Part shown: piece by piece, positions 13,546-19,618 of the stretch | How positions within the stretch are numbered: the first letter of the stretch is position 1 | How the letters are laid out: every line of letters starts with the position of its first letter | Made by a program: the position numbers and the translations under genes | The notes under the pieces: model-generated | The model's database searches: none | Told to the model about the DNA's origin: nothing | What the model saw: the letters and a program-made list of their open reading frames with translations, nothing else | Source of the DNA: Actinomycetospora cinnamomea | GTDB taxonomy: Bacteria; Actinomycetota; Actinomycetes; Mycobacteriales; Pseudonocardiaceae | Length of the DNA stretch: 64,000 bases | Assembly (NCBI RefSeq): GCF_003096675.1 | Contig: NZ_QEKW01000003.1 | Span: forward strand, 186,001-250,000 | Direction: 5' to 3'

Positions 13546-13678
13546 CTCCGGCGACCACGTTTCGGTACTCGCAGTACGCGGTACTGATTGGTAACAGCAG
13601 AACGGAGCAGGGGCTCCGGGCCGTGAGGAGGTGTCCGGTGGCGGAGACGACCCAGCGGAGCAAGGCGGGTGGAGGCAC

Positions 13679-15049
13679 ATGAACGCCTTCACCCTCGAGC
13701 TGACGCCCGCCCACCACGAGTTGGTGCGCCGTGCGCACGCCTTCGCCGAGGACGTCATCCGGCCAGCGGCGCCCCGGTACGACGCGGCCGAGGAGTGCCC
13801 CTGGGACATCGTCGACCGGGCGGCGCAGGAGGGCTTCTACAGCCCGCTGTTCTACGCCGATCTCATCGCCGACCCCACGGGCCTGTCGCTGCCACTGTTC
13901 CTCGAGGAGATCTTCTGGGGCTGCGCCGGCATCGGGTTGACCGTCGTCCTGCCCGCGCTGGCCCTCTCCGCGCTGAACCAGGCCGGCACTCCCGAGCAGC
14001 TCGCTCGGTGGGCCCCCGAGATGTTCGGCGAGCCCGGCGACATCAAGCTCGCGGCGCTGGCCGTCTCGGAGCCCCAGGGCGGGAGCGACGTCGCCGGGCT
14101 GCAGACCCGCGCCCGCAAGGACGGCGACTCCTGGGTCATCGACGGCGACAAGATCTGGATCGGCAACGGCGGCATCGCCGACGTCACGATCGTCAACGCC
14201 GTCGTCGACCCCGAGCTCGGCACCAAGGGCCAGGCGATGTTCGTCGTGCCGAAGGACACCCCGGGCATGGAACAGGTCCGCCGCCTGCGCAAGCTCGGGC
14301 ACCGCGCCAGCCATACCGCCGAGCTGAGGTTCGAGGGCTGCCGCATCCCGGCCGACCAGCTGCTCGGCGGCGAGGACAAGCTCGAGCACAAGCTGGAGAA
14401 GGCCCGACGGGGCGAGGGCAAGGCCGCGGCGCTCGGGACGTTCGAGCAGACGCGACCGATGGTGGCCGCGATGGCGCTCGGCGTGGCGCGGGCGGCGTTC
14501 GAGTACGCCTGCGACCACGCCCGCCGGCGGGAGGCGTTCGGCGGGCCGATCATCGCCAACCAGGGCGTGTCGTTCCCCCTGGCCGACCTCGCCGCCGACA
14601 TCGACGCCGCCCGCCTGCTCACGTGGCGCGCGTCGTGGATGGCCGCCAACGGTGTGCCGTTCCAGGTCGGCGAGGGCTCGATGTCGAAGCTCAAGGCCTC
14701 GGAGGTCGCCGTGCGCGCCGCGGAACAGGCCGTGCAGACCTGCGGCGGGTGGGGCTACGTCGACGACCTGCCCGTCGAGAAGTGGTACCGCGACGCAAAG
14801 CTCTACACGATCTTCGAGGGCACCAGCGAGATCCAGCGCATGGTGATCGGGCGGACGCTGTCCGAGCCGGAGTCGACCGAGGAGCCCGTGCACCACCGCC
14901 TGCCCGGGGACCGCCGCGGGCTGAGCCGCAGGTTCGGCCACGGTTCGTTGGCCCGGGCCCGCGCCGGCGAGATCTTCATGAAGCTCGCGCACAAGGCCCC
15001 GGAGCCGGTGCTGCGCCTCGGCGGCAGGCTCGCCTCGCCCGGCTCCTGA
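13679..15049 (+). CDS. Acyl-CoA dehydrogenase family protein
   Basis: FAD enzyme of 456 residues that introduces the alpha-beta double bond in acyl-CoA. The N-terminal helical domain is followed by the middle barrel with LAVSEPQGGSDVAG and GDKIWIGNGGIADV (substrate and flavin contacts). The C-terminal domain has ARRREAFGGPI, CGGWGYVDDLPVEKWYRD and YTIFEGTSEIQRM; the Glu of FEGTSE is the expected catalytic base. About 65 residues beyond the usual end (from TLSEPES) form a basic extension. ATG 13679 follows GGAGGCAC. The 133-bp upstream region holds the near repeats GTACTCG/GTACGCG/GTACTG, a possible operator. No partner electron-transfer genes are adjacent. Confidence 0.93.
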   Translation: MNAFTLELTPAHHELVRRAHAFAEDVIRPAAPRYDAAEECPWDIVDRAAQEGFYSPLFYADLIADPTGLSLPLFLEEIFWGCAGIGLTVVLPALALSALNQAGTPEQLARWAPEMFGEPGDIKLAALAVSEPQGGSDVAGLQTRARKDGDSWVIDGDKIWIGNGGIADVTIVNAVVDPELGTKGQAMFVVPKDTPGMEQVRRLRKLGHRASHTAELRFEGCRIPADQLLGGEDKLEHKLEKARRGEGKAAALGTFEQTRPMVAAMALGVARAAFEYACDHARRREAFGGPIIANQGVSFPLADLAADIDAARLLTWRASWMAANGVPFQVGEGSMSKLKASEVAVRAAEQAVQTCGGWGYVDDLPVEKWYRDAKLYTIFEGTSEIQRMVIGRTLSEPESTEEPVHHRLPGDRRGLSRRFGHGSLARARAGEIFMKLAHKAPEPVLRLGGRLASPGS

Positions 15050-15088: not shown

Positions 15089-16636
15089 GTGGCGGTGACC
15101 GCGCCCCGCCGACCCGATCGCCGCGCGGGCACCCCGGCGCCCGACGACGACACCGGACCGATCCGCCGGGAGCGCCCGCGCGAGGGGACCCGACGCCGGT
15201 CGGCCGAGGACGGACGGCCGGACGGCGCCACCGGGCGGCGTCGTACCGGTGAGGACGGAGCGCCGTCGCGTGCCCGCTCGTCCGGGACGGCGCCGCGGCG
15301 GCGCCGCTCGCGTGAAGCGTCGGCACGCGAAGGGTCCCCCCCGCGTCGCGCGGCCGACCCGGGTGCGGAGGTCGCGGTCGGCCACGGGCACGGCCACGGT
15401 GGCGGCGGGCTGGAGGGCGCGTCGGCACAGCGGGTGCGCCGGCTGCTCGCGCTGCTGCTCGCCCCGTTCGTCCTGGCGGTGCTGGCGGGGCTGGTGCTGC
15501 TCATGCCCTCACCCGGCGACTACGCGCGCGTGGTCGAGGCCGGGCGCGCGGGCCAGTCGGCCCAGGGCGTCCCCGGCCTCGGCGGGCAGACGCCGGTCGA
15601 CGGGGAGGTCCTCCGCGCCGCGGGGGAGGTCGACTGCACCGACCCCAACCTGCCCGCCCCCGCGCCCGGCGAGGGCTGCGTCGCCGTCACGGTCCGCCTC
15701 GACAGCGGTCCGGCGCCCGGTACGAGGATCGCGACCCTGGCCCCGTCGACCCCGGGCTCACCGCGCTTCGCGGTGGGCGACCCGGTGGTGCTGGCGTGGT
15801 CGGGCGGCGACCCCGCCGACCCGCTCGGCTACACCCTCGTCGACTTCCAGCGCGGCCCGCCGCTGCTGCTGCTCGGGGGCCTGTTCGCGCTGGCCGTGGT
15901 CCTGCTCGGGCGCTGGCAGGGGCTGCGCGCCCTCGTCGCGCTCGGCGTCACGCTGGGCGTCCTCGCGGTGTTCGTGCTGCCCGCCCTCGCCACCGGCGCG
16001 TCGCCGGTGCCGGTGGCCCTCATCGCGTGCGGGCTGATCGTCGGCGTGGTCCTCCCGCTCACCCACGGGGCGTCGGCGCGCAGCGCCACGGCGGCGCTGG
16101 GGACGCTCGCGAGCCTCGCACTGATCGGCGTGCTCGCGCTGCTCTTCGCGGCGGCCTCGCGGCTGACCGGGCTCGGCGAGGAGGCCTCGGAGCTCGCCGG
16201 CGTCCTCGGCCCGGGGCTCGACGTGCGGGGGTTGCTGCTCGCGGGCGTGATCATCGGCGCGCTCGGCGTGCTCGACGACGTCACCGTCACCCAGACCAGC
16301 GCCGTGTGGGAGTTGCACCGCGCGGACCCGGCCGCTCGGCTGATCGACCTCTATGGTTCCGCCATGCGTGTCGGTCGGGACCACGTCGCCTCCGCGGTGA
16401 ACACGCTCGTGCTCGCGTACGCCGGGGCGGCGCTGCCCCTGCTGCTGCTGTTCGCGCTGGCGGGGCGGGGTCTCGGCGACCTGCTCACGGCCGAGGACGT
16501 GGCGCAGGAGGTCGTGCGGACCCTCGTCGGCAGCATCGGGCTGGTCGCCTCGGTCCCGGTGACCACGTTCCTCGCGGCCGTCGTCGTGCGCGCCGTCAGT
16601 TCGAGCAGTCCGAGCACCCGGGGTGAGCCCGCATGA
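15089..16636 (+). CDS. YibE/F family membrane protein
   Basis: 515 residues. Residues 1-110 are an Arg/Gly/His-rich, probably cytoplasmic tail including HGHGHGGGG. A transmembrane helix (RLLALLLAPFVLAVLAGLVL), an external domain of about 110 residues, and then seven or so hydrophobic segments follow. GVLDDVTVTQTSAVWELH near the end of the helical part is the family signature. YibE/F proteins are multi-pass membrane proteins of unknown transport role. GTG 15089 or 15095 are both possible starts with weak ribosome sites. The stop overlaps the next start (ATGA), so the decapeptide-repeat protein is translated with it. Confidence 0.85.
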   Translation: MAVTAPRRPDRRAGTPAPDDDTGPIRRERPREGTRRRSAEDGRPDGATGRRRTGEDGAPSRARSSGTAPRRRRSREASAREGSPPRRAADPGAEVAVGHGHGHGGGGLEGASAQRVRRLLALLLAPFVLAVLAGLVLLMPSPGDYARVVEAGRAGQSAQGVPGLGGQTPVDGEVLRAAGEVDCTDPNLPAPAPGEGCVAVTVRLDSGPAPGTRIATLAPSTPGSPRFAVGDPVVLAWSGGDPADPLGYTLVDFQRGPPLLLLGGLFALAVVLLGRWQGLRALVALGVTLGVLAVFVLPALATGASPVPVALIACGLIVGVVLPLTHGASARSATAALGTLASLALIGVLALLFAAASRLTGLGEEASELAGVLGPGLDVRGLLLAGVIIGALGVLDDVTVTQTSAVWELHRADPAARLIDLYGSAMRVGRDHVASAVNTLVLAYAGAALPLLLLFALAGRGLGDLLTAEDVAQEVVRTLVGSIGLVASVPVTTFLAAVVVRAVSSSSPSTRGEPA

Positions 16637-18303
16637 CCCGTCCCGCCCTGCCGCGCGCGGTGGATCCGACGCCGGCGCCGAACGGGGTGCTCGACACGGC
16701 GCGGGCCCTGGTGGTGGCGTCGACGCGCACGGCCATCGAGCTCACGCTGCAGGGACCGTCGATCGTGCGGGGGCTGGCCGACATCGCGCGCACGGGCGCC
16801 GGGACCGCGGCCGACCTCAGCCCCATGGTCGTGGACGCGCTGCGCGCCGTGCCCCGGCTCGTGCGGCTGCTCGAGCAGCTCTCCCCCGTCGCGTCGGGGC
16901 TGCAGCACACCCTCGACCAGCTCGCGCCCGACCTCACGCGGCTCTCCTACGCCGTCGACGCCCTCGACCGCCTCGGCGGCGCCGTCGACGACCTCAACGC
17001 CCTGGCCCGCGCCGTGCCCACGCTGGCCCGCATCGCCGAGGCCGCGCCCGCGCTCGACCGGCTCGCCGAGGCCGTGCCCGCGCTGGGCCACCTGGGCGAC
17101 GCGACCGACGACCTGCACGCCCTCGCCGGCGCCGTGCCGGCGCTCGAGGCCATCGCCGGCGCGGCGCCCGACATCCGCGCACTCACCGAGGCCGTCCCGG
17201 CGCTGCAGCAGATCGGCGACGCCCGCGGCGACATCGCCACGCTCGCCACCGCCGTCCCCGCCCTGCAGCGGATCGGTGACGCCCGCGGCGACATCGCCAC
17301 GCTCGCCACCGCCGTCCCCGCCCTGCAGGAGATCGGTGACGCCCGCGGCGACATCGCCACGCTCGCGACCGCCGTCCCCGCCCTCCAGCACCTCGGCGAG
17401 GCGGCGCCGGTGCTCGCCCACCTCGCGGACGCGGCGCCGGCGCTGCAGCAGCTCGGCGGGGCCGTCCCCCACCTCGAGCGCCTCGCCGGTGCCGCGCCGT
17501 CGCTGGAGCACCTCGCGGGCGCCGTCCCGGCCCTCGAGCGCCTCGGCGTCGCGACCGACGACCTGCACACCATCGCCGCCGCCGCCCCCGCCCTGGTGGA
17601 GATCGGCTACGCCGCGGGCGAGCTGGCCACGATCGCGGGCGCGGTCCCGGCGCTCCAGGACGTCGCGACGGCCGCCGGGCACCTGGGCACGCTGGCCGGC
17701 GCGACCGACGACCTGCAGGCGCTCGCCGGCGCGACGGGCACGATCGAGCGCCTCGCCGACGCCGTCCCCACCGTCGGGCGGATCGCGGACGCCACGGGCC
17801 CCGTCGAGCGGATCGCCGACGCGGTGCCGACCGTCGCCGCGCTCGCGGACGCCGTGCCCACCGTCGCCCGGCTCGCCGAGGCCGTCCCGACCCTCGAAGC
17901 GCTCTCGGCCGCCGTGGACGACCTGCACGCCCTCTCCTCCGCGGTCGACGACCTCCACCACCTCGCCGAGGCCGCCCCGGCCCTGCGGCAGATGGCGGGC
18001 GCGATCGACGAGGTCCGCAAGCTCACCGGCGCCATCGGGCACGTCGAGGCCCTCGCCCGCCACGCCGACACCACGTTCCCCGACGTGCCGCCGCGCCTGG
18101 CCAACCTCGACGCGGCGCTGTCGACCGCCGCCGGCGAGCTGCAGAAGGTCAGCCCCGACCTGCGCACTCTCGCCGGGCGCATCGACAACCTCGACGAGCA
18201 GATCAAGGTGCTCGCCGACGCCCTCGCGCCGCTGCAGGGCACCACCGAACGCCTCGGCCGCGTGGTCGACCGCCTGCCCGGGCGCCGGCGCGGCGAGCAG
18301 TAG
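16633..18303 (+). CDS. Decapeptide-repeat protein (about 37 AVPALxxLAx units)
   Basis: 556 residues; I know no characterised family. Residues 1-106 are a helical head (VVASTRTAIELTLQGPSIVR and so on). Residues 107-476 are a gapless run of about 37 ten-residue units such as AVPALQRIGD, ATDDLHALAG and AVPTVARLAE: Ala at position 1, hydrophobic at 5 and 8, small at 9. Residues 477-556 are a coiled-coil-like tail (LANLDAALSTAAGELQKV; LDEQIKVLADALAPLQ) ending RRRGEQ. No signal peptide or membrane span is seen. The ATG lies in the stop of the YibE/F gene, which suggests a cytoplasmic or membrane-facing partner. Coding DNA includes near-exact 60-bp tandem copies. Confidence 0.85.
   Translation: MTRPALPRAVDPTPAPNGVLDTARALVVASTRTAIELTLQGPSIVRGLADIARTGAGTAADLSPMVVDALRAVPRLVRLLEQLSPVASGLQHTLDQLAPDLTRLSYAVDALDRLGGAVDDLNALARAVPTLARIAEAAPALDRLAEAVPALGHLGDATDDLHALAGAVPALEAIAGAAPDIRALTEAVPALQQIGDARGDIATLATAVPALQRIGDARGDIATLATAVPALQEIGDARGDIATLATAVPALQHLGEAAPVLAHLADAAPALQQLGGAVPHLERLAGAAPSLEHLAGAVPALERLGVATDDLHTIAAAAPALVEIGYAAGELATIAGAVPALQDVATAAGHLGTLAGATDDLQALAGATGTIERLADAVPTVGRIADATGPVERIADAVPTVAALADAVPTVARLAEAVPTLEALSAAVDDLHALSSAVDDLHHLAEAAPALRQMAGAIDEVRKLTGAIGHVEALARHADTTFPDVPPRLANLDAALSTAAGELQKVSPDLRTLAGRIDNLDEQIKVLADALAPLQGTTERLGRVVDRLPGRRRGEQ
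17221..17400 (+). repeat. Three tandem 60-bp repeats within the decapeptide-repeat gene
   Basis: Three consecutive 60-bp units starting GCCCGCGGCGACATCGCCAC are nearly identical; the third differs mainly in its last 20 bases. Each encodes two decapeptides (GDIATLATAVPALQ core). The near identity at DNA level shows recent duplication in this spot, while other units have diverged. Confidence 0.95.
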
Positions 18304-18446: not shown

Positions 18447-19445
18447 TCAGTTGCCGGAGCAGGGCTCCGGCTCGGGCCGCGGCTCGTGGCCCCCGTCGTG
18501 ACCGCCGTCGTGACCGCCGTTCTCGTGGCCGCCCTTGTCGTGGCCGCCCTTGTCGTGGCCGCCCTTGTCGTGGTGGCCCTGGTTCTCGTGGCCACCGTTC
18601 TCGTGACCCTCGTCCTCGCCGTCACCGGGGTGCGGCATCGGAATGGAGGGCACGGTCGGCTCCTCGCACGGCTCCTCACCCGGCACCTCGGGCGCGACGA
18701 GCTCGAAGTCGTAGGTCGTGCTGGGCGTCGAGACGAGGTCCACGGCCGCGTCGAGGCCGGGGTTGCCCGTGCCCTGGTTGAGGACGAGCGCCGTGACGAC
18801 GATGTCGGGCTGCCCGGCGACGTAGGCCGAGAACGGCTTCGCGCCGCCGTTCGAGCACGCCGTCTGATCGGCCTCGATCACGTCCGGGATCGCTCGCGTC
18901 GAGCACCAGTTGCCCGCGCCCGCCTCATAGCGGTGCCACTCCTCGGGCGTGGTGCTGTCGTCGGGGTTGTAGACGGGCTCGTAGGTGAGGGTCGAGAACC
19001 CGGCGTCCGAGGTCGGGTCGAAGTCGATGGCGAGCTGCATGCTCGGGAACTGCACCGGGTTGTCCGCAGCGGACCGGTAGGCCGAGTACGCGGCCGTCGG
19101 GATCCAGGCGGCGAGCGGCGACGGCGGCTCCTCCCTCACCGCGAGCGCTGCCTTGTCCGAGCCGCCGGGGGTCTGCAGCCGCAGCGCGGCCACGCCTCCG
19201 CCCTCCGGAGCGCCGAAGGCGTCGGAGACCTCGGCCGTGGCGTCCCCGCGGATGTCCCCGGGCGCGAACGGCGCGAGATCCGGCTCCACGTACGTCGTGC
19301 CCACCACCGGGACGGGCGCCGGCACCAGCGGTGCCGCACTGCCCGTCCCGATCGCCGCGGCGGCTCCGCCGCCGACGATCAGGGCCCCGGTGGCCGCGAG
19401 CGCGACCATCCCCCGACGTCCGAGCTTCGCCCTGTGAAGACCCAT
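18447..19445 (-). CDS. Secreted protein with a His/Gly/Asp-rich C-terminal tail
   Basis: 332 residues. A Sec-type signal peptide is clear: MGLHRAKLGRRGMVALAATG, a hydrophobic core, and small residues to about residue 40. The folded part (about 45-275) has paired-cysteine candidates (GNWCSTR, DQTACSNG, EEPCEEP) and a strand-rich look; no family is recognised. From about 283 to the end the protein is built of GGHDKGG, GGHENGG and GGHDGG units, a likely metal-binding or sticky tail, ending with PRPEPEPCSGN. ATG 19445 has GGAAGGACA upstream; the open frame continues further 5' but without family support. No anchor sequence is seen, so it is probably released. Confidence 0.75.
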   Translation of the reverse strand: MGLHRAKLGRRGMVALAATGALIVGGGAAAAIGTGSAAPLVPAPVPVVGTTYVEPDLAPFAPGDIRGDATAEVSDAFGAPEGGGVAALRLQTPGGSDKAALAVREEPPSPLAAWIPTAAYSAYRSAADNPVQFPSMQLAIDFDPTSDAGFSTLTYEPVYNPDDSTTPEEWHRYEAGAGNWCSTRAIPDVIEADQTACSNGGAKPFSAYVAGQPDIVVTALVLNQGTGNPGLDAAVDLVSTPSTTYDFELVAPEVPGEEPCEEPTVPSIPMPHPGDGEDEGHENGGHENQGHHDKGGHDKGGHDKGGHENGGHDGGHDGGHEPRPEPEPCSGN

Positions 19446-19618
19446 GCGTGTGGTGTCCTTCCGCCCCTGGGGTGATGTGGCGGCGTGAGCCACCACGCGT
19501 CGACAACGACGCGGACACGAAGGGGTGACGAAACCATCCGGCCGAGTGGCCGTCCAAGATCGCCTCATCGGCGCAGCCACGGAACGCCGACCGGGCGTAC
19601 CGAGTCCGGACGACGGGC

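Follow-up and report, generated by a model that had tools for sequence, protein, structure and literature searches.

In studies of coiled coils, the decad is described as 7+3 residues with the decomposition [4,3,3] (PMC9369452). Its period of 3.33 has been proposed as the smallest that a coiled coil tolerates, and in the stammers that the authors of that proposal knew of in 2016 a short 3-10 segment accommodated the insertion (PMC4786415). Among accessory proteins of transporters, the DUF1490 proteins (PacL) are described, in the examined parts of two papers, as scaffolds of metal-exporting P-type ATPases in mycobacteria (PMC9374683, PMC13043812). Those same parts, with a term search included for PMC9374683, do not mention YibE, and of the 25 papers in the open-access literature searched that contain YibE or YibF, none has either name in its title or abstract. 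Here we analyse a stretch of 64,000 nucleotides from Actinomycetospora cinnamomea (contig NZ_QEKW01000003.1, positions 186,001 to 250,000; hereafter the window), in which a gene for a protein built largely of gapless ten-residue repeats, the decad protein, directly follows a yibE/F gene. A first-pass annotation, made from the letters of the window alone, had placed ten residues outside the coiled-coil classes, which is contradicted by the decad as a described, if strained, motif (7+3, [4,3,3]) in the parts of PMC9369452 and PMC4786415 examined. The main interest of the decad protein is structural: single strained decads are already known, and decads in series make the existence of a continuous 10/3 coiled coil directly testable.

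Our preferred reading, to which we assign a probability of about 45%, is that the decad protein is an elongated, mostly alpha-helical accessory or spacer protein that is, or formerly was, part of a YibE/F membrane system. Its ancestor would have been a small helical protein of Pseudonocardiaceae whose gene directly followed yibE/F. Amplification of a ten-residue segment, placed between an N-terminal helix and the conserved helices of the C-terminus, would then have produced about 9-41 copies in Actinomycetospora and also, next to other genes, in Pseudonocardia. The array would serve as a spacer or rod, perhaps as an oligomerising stalk, that lengthens or shortens in whole decads. The sequences establish the array and its register, the family with its short members, and a linkage to yibE/F that is frequent but lost in part of the genus. 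We infer the direction of the expansion, the helical rod, the function as spacer or scaffold, and a location on the inner side of the membrane.

The decad array and its periodicity

Residues 107-476 of the window protein form 37 gapless ten-residue units, with Ala at position 1 in all 37. Position 5 is L in 26 units, V in 6 and I in 5, and position 8 is L in 25, I in 10, and V and M in one each. Position 3 is occupied by P (21), D (8) or G (8), Gly is frequent at positions 9-10, and position 10 is mostly G, D or E. The unbroken register that the first-pass annotation had reported for these residues, with Ala at 1 and hydrophobic residues at 5 and 8, thus holds in 37/37 units, and the finding of the array is real and confirmed. 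Under a looser rule, requiring one of L, I, V and M at both i and i+3 and recurring every ten residues, the protein contains 38 decads. Compared with itself, the array has an identity of 0.39 at lag 10 and 0.52 at lag 20, with z values over shuffled sequences of 17.5 and 25.3; the decads are thus organised further into super-units of 20 residues, a feature absent from the earlier description. The array is acidic, with 48 D+E against 19 K+R and an isoelectric point (pI) of 4.5, and the highest 19-residue hydropathy in the protein, 1.37, is below the usual transmembrane level.

In a fine angle scan, the hydrophobic signal of the whole array peaks at 108.0 degrees with a strength of 1.57, corresponding to 3.33 residues per turn. 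It drops to 0.17 for the heptad angle, 0.07 for the hendecad angle and 0.03 for 100 degrees. The flanks peak elsewhere, residues 60-106 at 103.3 degrees and residues 477-556 at 103.6 degrees, both near the heptad, so that the decad array sits between near-heptad ends. All 26 sequences with chains of at least 8 decads peak at 107.8-108.1 degrees; these arrays were selected for such chains, which makes the common peak partly a matter of construction and a sign of consistency, not a proof. Single decads are strongly amphipathic (18-residue segments of the array have a mean hydrophobic moment of 0.31, against 0.17 in shuffles), yet the moment of the whole array at 100 degrees is 0.03: on an ideal straight helix the hydrophobic face rotates by 80 degrees per decad, leaving no common face.

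Structure prediction, which the first-pass annotation had proposed as a check for a regular fold, returned helices and no confident regular fold. AlphaFold2 models contain helices only, both for the window protein (5 sequences; mean predicted local distance difference test score (pLDDT) 41, predicted template modelling score (pTM) 0.20) and for the homologue P0003 (28 sequences; mean pLDDT 71, pTM 0.31). In the P0003 model the helices span residues 19-55, 61-97, 101-161, 169-251 and 257-317, with the array centre (156-171) below 50, and the best Foldseek match of this model in the PDB had an E value of no less than 0.74. The part of PMC11795689 examined cautions that, for repeats, high confidence of AlphaFold2 may accompany a wrong model. 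From these models, the array may fold either as long helices at the 10/3 limit or as a short-helix solenoid.

No named family for the protein had been known to the first-pass annotation, and we likewise found none that was convincing in Pfam or NCBIfam. DUF2780 (PF11075) scored 27.7 bits against its cut-off of 27.5, covering 39 of 176 model positions inside the array; it was missing from the reversed control up to E 1, and the homologue P0003 fell below the cut-off at 21.0. Two further candidates were rejected because the reversed protein matches them as well: Baculo_PEP_C (PF04513) scored 36.5 bits forward and 32.3 reversed, below its own cut-off, and DUF7902 (PF25472) scored 31.4 forward and 31.8 reversed, above its cut-off both ways.

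Long arrays in Actinomycetospora, Pseudonocardia and beyond

The decad gene was matched in 18/18 Actinomycetospora genomes. Under the looser rule, chains in this genus comprise 16-37 decads in 14 sequences and 38 in the window; these counts omit the database proteins P0002, P0004 and P0005, of which P0004 and P0005 are shorter. Pseudonocardia arrays contain 9-41 decads, and chains in shuffled homologues never exceed 3 to 6. Long arrays also occur in distant homologues from a Micromonosporaceae bin (L116, 8 decads) and an Acidimicrobiaceae bin (L124, 11 decads), both keeping the C-terminal signature; no YibE/F open reading frame (ORF) was found in the regions around these two. The expectation that homologues would keep the ten-residue register is borne out for the long arrays, but many homologues have no long array at all.

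Array lengths are regular within clades. The distance between the N- and C-terminal anchors is 6 modulo 10 in 9/9 members of the yibE/F-linked Actinomycetospora clade (286-406), 9 modulo 10 in 9/9 of the remaining Actinomycetospora (149-339) and 9 modulo 10 in 6/6 Pseudonocardia sequences (99-419), 6 of 9 having both anchors; the partial genes L105 and L108 were omitted from distance and chain counts. As distances are constant modulo ten within clades, array length shifts by whole decads. Between A. callitridis and A. chibensis, the single pair compared, the array has 31 synonymous and 14 non-synonymous changes, giving a ratio of non-synonymous to synonymous rates (dN/dS) of 0.17; the protein ends have zero non-synonymous changes, and all 12 residue differences fall in the array. 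For this one species pair, the coding sequence thus shows purifying selection on the array. Some arrays contain long stretches free of Pro, of 59 residues in Actinomycetospora and of 79-118 in Pseudonocardia.

Three protein database searches returned 4, 3 and 17 homologues, the first and last having scored the best 7993 candidates by shared words. Across the order, 20/298 genomes gave matches, 19 in the same family and one weak match outside it; across the class, 12/296 did, 8 of them from one other family with small proteins bearing the C-terminal motif. These wider searches scored 14 (order) or 7 (class) candidates per genome, and absence there is weak. The small proteins of the other family of the class (L219-L226) are 116-145 residues long by most ORF calls and combine a PRIALALERL helix with a PLQGATERLGR end. 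No YibE/F ORF was found in the stretches around them, and some adjoin an ORF that may encode a membrane protein.

Short companions downstream of yibE/F

A profile of the short and C-terminal sequences matches 88/249 genomes of the family, in which YibE/F is present in 240/249. With the rows of Actinomycetospora left out, there are 76 match rows; 29 came with no yibE/F place, leaving 47, and in 35 of these the companion lies at most 1.5 kilobases (kb) away, downstream and on the same strand in all 35. The 12 non-adjacent rows are mostly weak matches or Pseudonocardia, with G236 downstream at 2.5 kb. Among the 29, we looked at 21 further regions and found the companion directly downstream of yibE/F in 17; the other four are two genomes lacking a YibE/F match (L178, L179) and two that resemble chance matches (L188, L192). 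As for the last eight, the companion is adjacent in G023 and not in the Pseudonocardia genomes G066, G097 and G166, and G096, G113 and two G059 rows were left out. Short homologues outside the genus are therefore found directly downstream of yibE/F, a placement that the first-pass annotation had proposed to check.

By most ORF calls the short companions are about 80-200 residues long, a few ORFs extending further at the 5' end, and their common features are a PRIA.AL-type helix and an ELPE...QLE helix. The PLQGTTERLGRLVDRLP end also occurs in short companions of Saccharothrix and a few other genera, and many of the shortest homologues lack the C-terminal signature PLQGTTERLGRVVDRLP. The window protein has both features that define the companion family, namely the C-terminal PLQGTTERLGR signature and a gene directly downstream of yibE/F. 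A short Saccharothrix member and a long Actinomycetospora member share 42% identity over 107 residues, and the Saccharothrix short form contains a chain of 4 decads, which is no more than suggestive of seed decads. Short and long forms have a common neighbourhood in several loci (aspS, hisS and others, read from start sequences). Most simply, the window protein can be read as a yibE/F companion with amplified decads, the direction probably being from short to long. In several genomes we also observed weak profile matches to proteins of about 230-280 residues.

Linkage to yibE/F within the genus

The decad gene adjoins yibE/F in 9 of 16 testable Actinomycetospora genomes (the window, L045, L047, L050, L051, L055, L056, L059 and L060), with L054 and L058 omitted from the count because they lie at contig ends. 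The ATGA coupling to a YibE/F protein noted at first pass is thus present in the window, and a 4-base overlap is found in 9/9 linked loci. The upstream product is a well-supported family member, matching PF07907 (YibE_F) with 244.2 bits (cut-off 27.2; E 1.8e-72) over residues 259-497, and it has eight hydrophobic segments by hydropathy.

For the unlinked loci (L046, L048, L049, L052, L053, L057 and L061), yibE/F lies elsewhere in 6/7 genomes, and the seventh, G009, has no YibE/F match at all. Within the genus, the YibE/F proteins of the linked and unlinked groups form two sister clades. All six loci from unlinked genomes (L090-L095) have an ATPase ORF and a DUF1490 ORF immediately in front of yibE/F; the identifications, DUF1490 and a heavy-metal-translocating P-type ATPase, come from Pfam and NCBIfam scans of the copies in G004, and the other loci were assigned by their match to G004. 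DUF1490 was found in 7/18 genus genomes, six unlinked ones and G016. In G016, no yibE/F occurs in the stretch around the ATPase and DUF1490 genes, and yibE/F is linked to the decad gene. An ORF of the major facilitator superfamily (MFS) type follows yibE/F in L091 (by Pfam) and in L092 and L093 (by length and start). In four Pseudonocardia regions (L062-L065) the neighbours of the decad gene read, from their start sequences, as deoC and the gene of a TetR-type regulator, and a homologue of acyl-CoA dehydrogenase is encoded within a few kb.

Thus, the proposal that homologues would stand beside yibE/F holds for the short forms, but not for 7/16 genus genomes or for these four Pseudonocardia regions. 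The two-part membrane system suggested at first pass survives as a widespread companion relation in the short form; a fixed pair is not shown, as the long protein also occurs without yibE/F beside it. The tie to yibE/F is old and not obligatory.

At least four His residues occur in the 85 residues examined ahead of the first hydrophobic segment in 47/54 homologous YibE/F ORFs, and the YibE/F copy of the window has a His-Gly stretch there with three His. Together with the ATPase neighbourhood, this stretch suggests a possible role of YibE/F with metal ions. We hold such a metal-related role of the partner with less confidence than the rest of our reading. The little-studied YibE/F family in any case gains a recurrent partner gene in Pseudonocardiaceae, with a possible link to metal efflux.

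Alternative explanations

Several observations weigh against the decad protein as a spacer of a YibE/F system. There is no adjacent yibE/F in 7 of the 16 testable genus genomes and no YibE/F ORF in the four Pseudonocardia decad regions (L062-L065); outside the genus, G057 and G090 carry the short protein and have no YibE/F match, and at least 152 of the 240 YibE/F-bearing genomes of the family gave no companion match, through absence or divergence. Recombination of a 30-base repeat would by itself keep lengths in tens with no structural selection, shuffles of the Saccharothrix form reach 3-4 decads, so that its seed decads are weakly supported, and the AlphaFold2 models (pLDDT 41, and 71 with a pTM of 0.31) are too poor for a fold. 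A possible, though rather unlikely, alternative is a compact alpha-solenoid in which each decad would be a short helix and a turn (Pro at 3, Gly at 9 or 10), offering a binding surface, not a rod. Pro stands at position 3 in 21/37 units, Gly is frequent at 9-10, and an 80-degree turn per decad leaves an ideal helix no common face (moment 0.03 at 100 degrees). Pro is, however, often absent, with Pro-free stretches of 59 (Actinomycetospora) and 79-118 (Pseudonocardia) residues, and AlphaFold2 builds long helices in P0003 with moderate confidence. It is improbable that the conserved ends are all that matters, the array being no more than a passive linker that evolves fast or a side effect of expanding repeats: although copy number differs widely among species and 12/12 residue differences between A. 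callitridis and A. chibensis fall in the array, its dN/dS is 0.17, the register is unbroken in long arrays (26/26 peaks at 107.8-108.1 degrees, in sequences selected for decad chains), and every full-length genus sequence counted has at least 16 decads (P0002, P0004 and P0005 left out).

More doubtful still is an amphipathic lipid-surface protein that would coat a membrane or lipid droplets. Apolipoproteins and synucleins have 11/22-residue repeats whose period of 11 gives a common lipid face along the helix. The array resembles them in its short amphipathic helical repeats (18-residue moment 0.31, 0.17 when shuffled), with recurrent Pro as in apolipoproteins, and an acyl-CoA dehydrogenase gene recurs beside the locus throughout the genus; unlike them, it has a period of 10 and a signal of 0.07 at the hendecad angle, its hydrophobic face wanders on an ideal helix with no common side, and it is acidic (48 D+E, 19 K+R, pI 4.5). 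A last candidate, for which we see very little chance, takes the 20-residue super-unit for a YopM-type leucine-rich repeat, whose motif is LxxLxLxxN, with Asn, and a hydrophobic position 10. The 20-residue units with hydrophobic positions 5, 8, 15 and 18 are alike, and phmmer matched YopM 4ow2 (E 6.4e-11) with the units in phase; the reversed control against the same chain was far weaker (E 6e-4), so the forward match reflects more than composition. But position 3/13 is Pro, Asp or Gly and never Asn, leaving no Asn ladder, position 10 is mostly Gly or charged and not hydrophobic, both AlphaFold2 models are helical, and Pseudonocardia units of the REDLHELAAV kind read as helix-like. We set the YopM type aside because of the motif and the helical models, not because of the reversed control alone.

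Features of the window and neighbouring genes

Coordinates of the features at the yibE/F and decad gene locus, in positions of the window.
Feature	Position	Strand	Basis
Acyl-CoA dehydrogenase gene, upstream	13631..15049, start probably ~13679	+	Pfam
yibE/F gene, 515 residues from GTG, true start uncertain	15089..16636	+	PF07907, E 1.8e-72
His-Gly stretch GHGHGHGG of YibE/F, ahead of first hydrophobic segment; three His	15380..15403	+	Sequence
ATGA overlap, yibE/F stop and decad gene start	16633..16636	+	ATG at 16633, TGA at 16634-16636
Decad protein gene, 556 residues	16633..18303	+	ORF and translation
N-terminal region, residues 1-106, near-heptad helical part within	16633..16950	+	Conserved among homologues, angle scan
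Decad array, residues 107-476, 37 units	16951..18060	+	Register, autocorrelation, 108-degree period
C-terminal region, residues 477-556, near-heptad helices; common to many short homologues	18061..18300	+	Alignments, angle scan
C-terminal signature PLQGTTERLGRVVDRLP, residues 533-549	18229..18279	+	Invariant or nearly so in three homologue alignments

The upstream acyl-CoA dehydrogenase gene is present in 15/17 genus regions, the remaining two being truncated by contig ends. The next gene downstream (18447-19580, minus strand) encodes a protein whose N-terminus, as we read it, resembles a signal peptide, and whose tail (about 18507-18605) consists of His/Asp/Gly-rich five-residue units such as GGHDK and GGHEN, forming a 15-base tandem repeat.

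Comparison with known systems

Like PacL (DUF1490, PF07371), the protein appears to be a helical accessory protein encoded with a membrane transporter, and many of its relatives are small; unlike PacL, the decad protein has no match to PF07371 (Pfam up to E 1) and no transmembrane-like segment (maximum 1.37). Another likeness is to the decad of coiled-coil stammers as described in the examined parts of PMC9369452 and PMC4786415, since the array has hydrophobic residues at positions 1, 5, 8 and 11 and a period of 3.33. This likeness is one of residue spacing, present in 37/37 units; a coiled coil of continuous, packed helices is a candidate fold for the array. In the open-access literature searched, we found no description of long serial decads. 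Stammers are isolated, strained insertions among heptads, whereas here 9 to 41 decads stand in series with no heptads between them. We think it plausible, with somewhat less confidence than we place in the accessory or spacer protein as a whole, that such a series forms a continuous helical bundle at 3.33 residues per turn or an alpha-solenoid of very short units, grown from a small transporter companion and sized in tens. If so, either fold would be a new repeat architecture.

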